This document shows positions 15,801 through 18,800 of a stretch of 27,080 nt of DNA, in pieces. The first letter of the stretch is position 1. The number at the start of each line of letters is the position of its first letter. The stretch is from contig JAABOA010000087.1 of NCBI GenBank assembly GCA_015680635.1, positions 1 to 27,080 of the forward strand. Direction: 5' to 3'. Source of the DNA: Lunasporangiospora selenospora (taxonomy: Eukaryota; Mortierellomycota; Mortierellomycetes; Mortierellales; Mortierellaceae). The position numbers and the translations under genes are program-made. The notes beneath the pieces are model-generated. The model was not told the DNA's origin. It searched no databases and saw only the letters and a list, made by a program, of their open reading frames with translations.

Positions 15801-18800
15801 GAGTTTCATCTTTAAATACAATAAAATACAAAAATAACAACAATAAAATTCAAAGTCCAATAAATCCTGTAAGATTTTCTTTAACAACTAATCTTAGAGC
15901 TTTTAGTACTCAGGGATTAACAAAAGATAAAATTTTAGACCCTTATTGGGTTACAGGATTTACTGATGCTGAAGGATGTTTTTCAGTAATAATAGAAATG
16001 TCTAGTTTATTAAGTTGGAAAGTTAGAGTATCTTATGAGATTAATTTACATATCAAAGATATTGCTATTCTTCATCAAATAAAAAGATTTTTTGGTGTAG
16101 GTTCTATATATTCAAATTCTAATAAAAATTCTTGTGTTTATAGAGTAACTACAGCTAAAGATTTAATTGCAGTTATTATCCCTCATTTTACTAAATACCC
16201 TTTAATTAGCAAAAAAAGAAATGATTTTTTACTTTGGTCAGAAGTTACTAGTATGATTAATTTAAAAGAACATTTAACTTTAGATGGATTTTTAATTATT
16301 TTATCTAAATATGCTGCAATTAATATAGGTGTTTCACCAAAAATATCTAAACATTATCCTAATATTATAGCTTCTGAAAGACCTGAATTTGCATTACCTG
16401 AGGTGTTAAATCCTCAATGGGTATCTGGATTTATAGCAGGTGATGGAGGATTTTCAATAATTATTAGACCTAAAAAATCTAATAAAATAGTTTTAACTAA
16501 TATTGAAAAACCTAATATTATAAACATTTTATCTTATTTTAGGTAGAAAAATTTAATTAAACAAAATAATGAAACTAGAGAGATATTAATGCTTTATTGC
16601 ATTAAATACTAATTAATTTTAAAATAGCAATTTATTTATGTGGCCAATGGCCACATCAGGAAATTAAGAAAATAAAAAATTTAAAACTCTTTCCCTTCTT
16701 TAATAATATAATGGGATTAGCATTAAGGATCTTCTTATAGAAAATGTCTCCTTCTAGAGTTTTTGAAGCTTATGAATATAAAGGATTTATTTGCTGGATA
16801 AAGATCTTGATCTTTTTAAATATAAACTCTCGAAAAATAATTATTAATTACATACTCAATTTTTATTAAGATCATTTAGATTAAGTAATCAAAACTTAAC
16901 AGTTCAAGTCTATTTTATTCTAATCTTATAGAACCTTAGCAGAGCCAATTGTTCTTAGGTTATTCTTTAGTTAGATCATGTAGATAAATATGCAAAATAA
17001 ACTTTAAGGTACTTAATCTTAAAATGGTCCTTTTAAATCTAATTTAAACATTTAATAAATAAAGGATTATACAAATAAAAAAAAAATATGGTACAATGGT
17101 TATTTTCAACGAATTTAAAAAAAAAAGGTTCTTTATGTTTATTCAGTCAAAAAAATGATATGACCCCTTATGGTTCAATTAGGGGTTTTCAGTTAGGTAA
17201 AGATATTTCAGTAGCAACGCCTATAATAATTTACTCTAATGCGGAATCAGAGAAATCTTCAATTTTATCTGATAATAAGTGCAAGGCTGGTATTTATCAG
17301 TGGAAACATGAGGGTTCAGGTAAAATTTATATTGGTTCTGCCGTTGATTTATCTAAACGATTAACGTCGTATTATTCCCCTTTATTTCTAAAACGAATGG
17401 ATAATTACATTTCTAGAGCATTAATTCATCACGGTCATTCTGCATTTTCTTTATCAATTCTTGAGTATATTGATATTACGGATTTACCGAAGAATGAAGT
17501 TAAAAATTTGATTCTAAGTAAAGAACAATATTATCTTGATACTCTGGTGCCTAAATATAATATACTTACAAAAGCAGGTAGTAACTTAGGTTATAAACAT
17601 TCAAAAGATACATTAGTAAAATTGAGTGAAATCAATTCCAAACAAAATAATCCTATGTTTGGTAAATCTCATACAACTTTTTCTAAAACTTTAATGATTA
17701 AAGCCAAAACTGGTGAAAATCATCCGATGTTTGGTAAAACTCATTCAGAAGTTACTAAAGCTTTAATGAGTCAAATTAAATCTGGGGAAAATCATCCAAT
17801 GCATGGTAAAACTCATTTGGCTGAGACTCTTTTAAAAATTAGTGAAGCTAATGGTTCTAAAGTTCAAGTAATTAATAAAGAAACAGATGAAACAATGATT
17901 TATTTTTCTAATTGTAAAGCTGCTGAAGCTTTAGGCTGTAGTGAAGCAACTATCCGTAATTATATTAAAAATAAAAAACTTTATAAAGGTAAATTTTTAA
18001 TTTCAAAATATATTCAATAAACTCTACATCTTATATTATTCCTATTTAATCTGATGGGTTCAGAATAGAGTTTCGAATGCATGTAACTCAACACAAACAA
18101 GATGAAAAATTAATTAATAAATTAGTTGATTATTTTGGATGTGGGAAAGTTTATTTTAGAAATAATATTGCAACAATCAGATGTGATTTTATTATTCAAA
18201 ATATTTCAGATATTTATAATAAAGTATTACCTCATTTTGATCAATATCCTTTAAATAATTTAAAACAATTAGATTATTTAGATTTTAAAGAAGCTATTCT
18301 TATAATGAAATCAGAAGGATATTTGACTAAATTGAATTTTAATAAAATAAAATCACTTAAAGAAAATATGAACAATTCTAGATCTTGGAAGTCTGTTAAA
18401 GAAGACTAATCTAAGAAGATTAAAAATTTATTAGAGGGTATTATAATTTTGTTCTTTCTTTTTATAAGCTGAGAAAGTTAATATCTTAGAAAGACGAATT
18501 TATAATGTGCTATATTTACCATTATAATAATTTATTATAATGATCCCTGTGATTAAATACCATTACATTTATTAAGGAGAAGAATGTTTTACATATAAAG
18601 CCTTTCTTATTCCCTGTTTAAATATAATCATTAATTTAAGACAGCTATGCTATGTTATCAATTGGTGTATTAGGATTTATCGTATGGAGTCACCATATGT
18701 ATTCAGTAGGTTTAGATGTAGATACTCGAGCTTATTTCACTGCGGCTACAATGATTATTGCAGTTCCTACAGGGATTAAAATCTTTAGTTGGTTAGCTAC

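Follow-up and report, generated by a model that had tools for sequence, protein, structure and literature searches.

Fungal mitochondria, yeast being the model, are generally held to need gene-specific leaders for translation, which raises the question of how homing endonuclease genes lying outside introns are expressed. The locus described here poses this question in a concrete form: a GIY-YIG endonuclease gene that opens with a copy of the cox1 leader and start codon splits a LAGLIDADG gene within a cox1 intron of Lunasporangiospora selenospora. Where could such a gene have acquired the 5' end of a host gene, and is this the only one to have done so? The stretch of DNA analyzed (the window, 27,080 nt) is contig C74 of the L. 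selenospora assembly (475 contigs, 8.2 Mb in all). On it lies a fungal-type cox1 gene broken into many pieces. Core genes are found on contigs C3, C74 and C357, the rRNA genes on C317, and tRNAs and endonuclease genes on C206. Since cox1 was found on C74 only, and no core gene was seen twice in full (ORF lists, by eye), the five contigs fit a single mitogenome of about 132.6 kb in five pieces; all of them, and the insert junctions described below, are known from one draft assembly.

A LAGLIDADG gene split within a cox1 intron

The host intron is flanked by matches to cox1 exons (15297-15395 on the left, 18646-18951 on the right), and its LAGLIDADG gene occurs in two parts on the plus strand. 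The first (15674-16519; PF00961, E 2.3e-30) holds domain 1 and the start of domain 2 and aligns with residues 1-273 of a full-length relative, P0121, while the second (18053-18409; PF00961 from profile position 24, E 3.2e-18) aligns with residues 276-395. The two are adjoining stretches of one full-length protein, and this is likewise so with P0122, P0123 and P0124, all of which lack the insert at the protein level; the loss at the junction is two residues relative to P0121 and P0123, and one relative to P0122 and P0124. The split proposed in an earlier, sequence-only reading is confirmed by these alignments, but the break is not at about 16480: the open frame runs from 15674 to 16543, homology to P0121 stops at nt 16516-16519, and the gene resumes at 18053. 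Because neither homologous part contains a stop codon, the insertion may be recent, or the LAGLIDADG parts may still be kept. Upstream of the interrupted ORF, at 15516-15567 on the plus strand, are two motifs (15516-15529 and 15552-15567) which we take to be group I-like intron core motifs, each of them recurring in identical form elsewhere in the window. Because the ORF begins only after these conserved motifs of the host intron, splicing need not suffer from the insertion.

The insert (16520-18052) is 1533 nt long, a multiple of three, which would fit an intron, nested in an intron ORF, whose splicing restores the LAGLIDADG frame. Such an arrangement is known for a homing endonuclease ORF (PMC8393795), but neither of the two core motifs is found in 16520-18052 within three mismatches, and no Rfam intron was detected there. 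The latter is a weak argument, as Rfam also misses the host intron (15200-18800 gave three matches only, with E of 3-3.8 and far below gathering scores). A nested intron appears improbable. A search for target-site duplications found a 7-nt AT repeat near both junctions and nothing more. The left part of the insert, 16520-16837, is AT-rich and contains a hairpin at 16629-16665 (inverted repeat I7, with 18-nt arms of 83% identity and a 1-nt loop). Nothing in the five mitochondrial contigs convincingly matches these first 318 nt, and this counts against the explanation we favor below, the movement of a leader and endonuclease gene as a unit.

The cox1 leader and start of the GIY-YIG gene

The remainder of the insert begins with a copy of the cox1 5' end. 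Positions 16838-17141 align with 3451-3719, that is, with the native cox1 leader (3451-3665, 215 nt) and codons 1-18 (3666-3719), at 68% identity over 309 columns (E 2.8e-24), all on the plus strand. The two ends of the leader are well matched (81% at 3451-3535 and 85% at 3596-3665), the stretch between them poorly (41%), and codons 1-18 at 72%. The similarity resolves into a block A (16838-16919, 84.5% over 84 columns), a block B that reaches the start codon (17013-17087, 85% to 3596-3665), and the copied codons that open the GIY-YIG ORF (17088-17141, with 39 of 54 nt identical in register); block B and the codons together (17013-17141) match the surroundings of the cox1 start at 79% (E 1.6e-24). 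The leader alone (16838-17087) scores 117 against a maximum of 56 in 1000 dinucleotide shuffles (mean 30.1, s.d. 4.0), and the best window outside the insert reached 42 in a plus-strand scan of 388-nt windows every 100 nt that left out the native leader's surroundings. The leader copy is thus real, and its alignment is far above what shuffled AT-rich sequence yields.

Nine copied cox1 codons had been proposed, and within these 21 of 27 nt match. A weaker similarity continues through codons 10-18 (18/27 nt in register, equalled by a fraction of 0.00025 of 20,000 shuffles, the end point having been set by the alignment itself), but the 200 nt that follow codon 9, when aligned locally, score 19, no better than chance (shuffle mean 18.9). 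Judged from the alignments, we are sure of nine captured codons and think it likely that about 18 were taken. Since the non-coding blocks (81% and 85%) are better kept than the codons (72%), the comparison suggests that the leader is of some importance to at least one of the two copies. The copy starts with MVQ and the native gene with MKR, and this had been read as a sign of a foreign or ancestral cox1 donor. No foreign donor is needed: a public-data homolog, P0043, shares the MVQWLFS start, so the start may have been inherited along with the element. A third copy, of block A alone, lies at C3:34871-34957, with tRNA-Phe on one side and a copied nad2 5' end on the other, where it may be a promoter or processing signal. 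A tRNA-like identity for block A was considered and set aside, as the T-stem-like pairing appears, from the alignment by eye, to be lost in the other two copies.

Continuing in frame from the captured start is an intact ORF of 310 aa plus stop (17088-18020, plus strand), with a GIY-YIG domain (Pfam E 5.5e-7), three NUMOD3 stretches and a match to TIGR01453 (E 8.4e-59). Residues 66-160 (17283-17567) correspond to the I-TevI catalytic domain by sequence and fold: the pLDDT blocks are mostly >90, and the top three Foldseek matches, to 1mk0 and 1ln0, have E-values of 4.9e-5 to 5.0e-4, prob 1.00 and TM-scores by target of 0.67-0.69. Y70, Y81, G83, E146 and N158 are invariant among 31 aligned sequences and R91 nearly so; these are presumably the GIY-YIG catalytic residues. 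The C-terminal residues 260-310 (17865-18017) form a predicted helix-turn-helix/NUMOD1-like domain (pLDDT blocks >90; HTH_17 and NUMOD1 both below curated cut-offs). Residues 1-41, which include the cox1 part, have pLDDT <50, a low confidence that is partly expected given that the N-termini differ in the 31-row alignment. On the prediction from domain, residues and fold, the ORF is an I-TevI-type GIY-YIG homing endonuclease of the TIGR01453 family, and the gene is intact, as had been stated. Among relatives at the DNA level, 51 loci belong to viral contigs and 3 to genome contigs, the best segments being 23-55% identical. The central observation therefore holds: a cassette of a cox1-derived leader, start codon and GIY-YIG gene lies inside another selfish gene, which it splits.

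Host-gene 5' ends on other endonuclease genes

The sequence-only reading described one case of leader capture. The event is not unique, for the 5' ends of eight host genes (cox1, cox2, atp6, atp8, atp9, nad2, nad4 and nad6) are found on homing endonuclease genes in this mitogenome. One of the other cases lies in the window, where the native atp6 leader and start codon (23780-23840, plus strand; atp6 by Pfam) is matched at 12928-12987 on the same strand (79% over 61 columns, start codon aligned to start codon), and opens the window's second GIY-YIG gene with a captured leader (12985-13884, plus strand; TIGR01453, E 1.1e-38). Comparison with the other contigs added an atp8 leader with codons (C357:10019 and C206:15196), nad2 codons (C3:6486, C3:32066 and C357:3288), a cox2 leader with codons on a LAGLIDADG ORF (C3:43152), and atp9 leaders before a decayed GIY-YIG gene (C357:5078) and a LAGLIDADG_2 ORF (C3:54472). 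A nad6 leader precedes a GIY-YIG gene on the minus strand at C357:1026, the match stopping 27 nt short of the nad6 start. In the case of nad4, the copied leader and codons (C3:47555-47402), GIY-YIG remains (47214-47017, E 9.3e-8) and the start of intact nad4 (46387) follow one another on a single strand. The nad2 copy at C3:32066 and the atp6 copy at C3:51108 match GIY-YIG homologs in no more than their N-terminal and linker part.

Several related features were noted in passing. The N-terminus of a LAGLIDADG_2 ORF at C3:9605-10351 is atp9-like by eye (MLAIFKFIGAGSVKGAGLV). Upstream of the native atp6 leader, an atp6 interior fragment (22611-22669) is followed by a GIY-YIG-like stretch (22799-23591), which may be another in-place insertion like that at nad4. 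A copy of cox1 exon 1 lies in a later cox1 intron (8663-8696 and 8756-8904, 97% and 94% identical to 3689-3722 and 3728-3876); it begins from codon 9, is interrupted at 8720 by a motif resembling an intron core, and is followed about 50 nt further on by an unfused LAGLIDADG ORF (8953-10008). Directly before the large rRNA gene, C317:1665-1752 resembles the nad2 leader (76%), possibly reflecting a shared promoter.

Across the five mitochondrial contigs, 17 extra copies of core-gene 5' ends were found, derived from nine of the 12 genes tested (cob, nad4L and rps3 were left out). In eight of the 17, a GIY-YIG catalytic start follows on the same strand within 450 nt downstream, compared to a mean of 0.98 and a maximum of 5 in 5000 random placements. 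Five further copies comprise those of cox2 and atp9 before LAGLIDADG genes, that of nad4 before GIY-YIG remains, and those of nad2 and atp6 with N-terminal and linker matches, so that 13 of the 17 have an endonuclease gene, or a portion of one, directly attached. Structure, recurrence and association with endonuclease genes are, in this sense, directly established. The four without direct attachment are a nad2 copy at C3:35162, the nad2 leader before rnl at C317:1665, a piece of the cox3 leader at C3:46575 and, in the window, the copied first exon of cox1 at 8756.

Could these copies simply be host-gene pieces scattered by recombination or reverse transcription, with endonuclease genes as chance neighbors? 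Unattached copies such as that of nad2 at C3:35162 would fit, as would an interior fragment of nad1 (nt 676-825, 89%) copied at C3:36913-36765, with no GIY-YIG match in the 1 kb examined. Dispersed repeats are also common, and a looser test of the regions upstream of GIY-YIG starts, which weighs against a specific association, had a high background: core 5' regions were matched in 12/31 cases (three of which overlap the core genes themselves and one of which is an 18-nt match) and in 146/859 random windows, core 3' regions in 11/31 (including three overlapping cases and some owed to the short atp8 and atp9) and 184/859, and interior regions in 1/31 and 34/859. A protein-level scan with the first 45 aa was likewise noisy, giving 8 matches compared to 5 and 2 for interior controls. 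Against random scattering, however, interior windows of five genes longer than 700 nt gave only 3 copies, none of them (0/3) near a GIY-YIG start, compared to 17 for the 5' windows of 12 genes, and the association of the latter with GIY-YIG genes is strand-specific. Homologs that carry host N-termini speak against it as well, and we regard chance scattering as very improbable.

These homologs were sought among the best 120 of 632 protein matches to the GIY-YIG gene, of which 29 carry host-protein sequence within their first 150 residues at E <1e-3 (one each in reversed and shuffled decoys). Among these best 120, the source of the start is nad2 in 22, cox1 in four, atp6 in two and atp8 in one, and 24 of the 29 matches are anchored at the N-terminus of either protein alike. 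Relaxing the threshold to E <0.01 gave 33 of the same 120, compared to 11 and 5 for reversed and shuffled decoys, respectively. These numbers supersede an earlier count of 25/49 (recognized extension of at least 20 aa, E <0.01), the motif rule of which missed 45 proteins. Two homologs (P0043 and P0010) have starts that are cox1-like by eye but fall short of the E cut-off, and no host-protein starts were found among 120 homologs of one LAGLIDADG gene used as a control. In a catalytic-domain tree (126 of 128 rows, 143 columns), which is poorly resolved, neither cox1 labels (7 changes across 7 rows; mean of 6.6 when shuffled) nor nad2 labels (10 changes across 23 rows; 10.1 when shuffled) are clustered, a result that counts against the explanation favored below.

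The 22 captured nad2 starts have a median identity of 46% to L. selenospora nad2, compared to 82% for the live nad2 of the close clade (45 rows, four of which are low-scoring and partial) and 42% for that of more distant fungi (74 rows). Of the best 120 nad2 relatives, those of Mucor, Rhizopus, Umbelopsis and further fungi reach about 46-49% identity, and other proteins in this set reach 74-80%. In 20 of the 22 cases the best match of the captured start is a close-clade nad2, the other two being a fragment, P0289 (80% to L. selenospora nad2), and Mucor. Because 20 (21 with P0289) best match the close clade, capture within the L. selenospora lineage, followed by drift, probably accounts for most of these starts.

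Such host N-termini would need no capture at all if they were live upstream exons read in frame with an intron ORF, and exon fusion of intron ORFs is indeed frequent (PMC8393795). Some homologs have long and well-kept nad2 starts (P0086 at 81%, P0041 at 70%), and the captured starts are no further from L. selenospora nad2 (46%) than are distant live nad2 sequences (42%), so divergence alone cannot exclude that they are live exons of other fungi. In L. selenospora, however, cox1, atp6, cox2, nad4, nad6 and nad2 retain their own 5' ends, and the copies lie elsewhere, several of them with leader DNA. The best matches of 20/22 captured nad2 starts are to the close clade, in which live nad2 stands at a median of 82%, and the atp6-type start joins the first codons to codons ~170-192, both at C3:51108-50958 and in the homolog P0026. 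Live exons are thus an unlikely explanation of the present fusions, but exon fusion may have been their first origin.

Origin of the captured starts and comparison with known systems

The explanation we consider probable is that endonuclease genes once read from host start codons kept the leader and start, and moved with them as units. The GIY-YIG gene would first have been read in frame from the cox1 start codon, having arrived either by insertion near the 5' end of the host gene or as an exon-fused intron ORF, and the cox1 leader and start would then have been retained as its own 5' end. As a free-standing cassette it would later have moved, leader included, into the LAGLIDADG gene of a cox1 intron, splitting that gene, and several other host genes in the same mitochondrial lineage would have followed the same course. 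The nad4 arrangement is a likely early state, and the cox1-intron cassette a later one. The leader would likely allow the endonuclease to be expressed at sites that offer no fusion to a live host gene; from the arrangements seen, we infer this use of the leader, the mobility of the cassette and the order of events.

A broader proposal, which we advance tentatively and hold to be somewhat doubtful, is that leader trapping is a regular way of life of mitochondrial homing endonuclease genes. The leaders of essential genes would provide expression without a host ORF or intron, so that these genes could settle anywhere, including in rival endonuclease genes, and nuclease domains and captured starts might be swapped as modules. 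Captured leaders may hold promoter and translational-activator sites. Recurrent capture of a leader and start offers a testable answer to the question of expression raised at the outset, and a possible route for endonuclease genes out of introns. It could also account for the incomplete additional core-gene copies known from published fungal mitogenomes, cautions annotators against taking such copies for exons, and turns every captured start into a trace of where its element resided before.

Non-core mitochondrial ORFs with 5' regions derived from core genes include the chimeric ORFs of plant cytoplasmic male sterility (CMS; e.g., T-urf13), but those belong to plants and are not endonucleases, and the likeness is one of analogy only. 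Closer are the mobile endonuclease ORFs (mORFs) with duplicated C-termini described for Glomus/Rhizophagus, Allomyces atp6, Rhizopus atp9 and Mortierella cox2 (PMC3630166), which likewise combine an endonuclease gene with a piece of a host gene in fungal mitochondria. As presented there, it is the 3' end of the host gene that exists in duplicate, the inserted copy being read together with the host gene at its own locus, whereas here the endonuclease is fused to a captured 5' leader and start, and such fusions occur at unrelated sites; the captured part in the intron cassette is the cox1 leader and first codons, not a host 3' end duplicated around an endonuclease. A separate feature of the window does resemble a C-terminal-duplication element: downstream of atp6, the atp6 end and a LAGLIDADG gene are duplicated at 72% (24573-25527 and 26099-27080).

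Duplicated 5' ends near mobile or other ORFs have also been reported, so the broad idea is in print. In Tremella fuciformis, six mobile elements duplicate N-terminal parts of five host genes, each element lying in the gene whose N-terminus is duplicated, and the duplication is termed a by-product (PMC7315562); the words leader, start codon, promoter and untranslated do not occur in the main text of that report. The nad4 case on C3 resembles this arrangement, but the cox1-intron cassette does not, being about 13 kb downstream of the cox1 start rather than beside it. In Heterobasidion, the 5' ends of nad2, cox3 and atp8 occur upstream of cox2 and intergenic ORFs, and help with expression was suggested (PMC10234125). 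A core-gene 5' end upstream of a non-core ORF is likewise found here, but the Heterobasidion ORFs are not described in that account as in-frame fused homing endonuclease genes, whereas the present cases are in-frame endonuclease fusions involving eight host genes, one of them nested in another endonuclease gene. In Phialocephala subalpina, the opening 14 bp of ORF_01 are those of a duplicated atp9, and the duplication takes in 124 bp ahead of the start codon (PMC3434094). The remainder of that ORF lies in an insertion, no endonuclease is named in the description, and it concerns one gene, at the duplicated atp9 itself. No report of captured 5' leaders on homing endonuclease genes was found in the literature examined, and such a paper may still exist. 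As far as our search extends, what is new here is the presence of the leaders and starts of eight host genes on homing endonuclease genes in one mitogenome, the occurrence of similar starts in homologs from public data, and the nesting of one such gene in a rival endonuclease gene.
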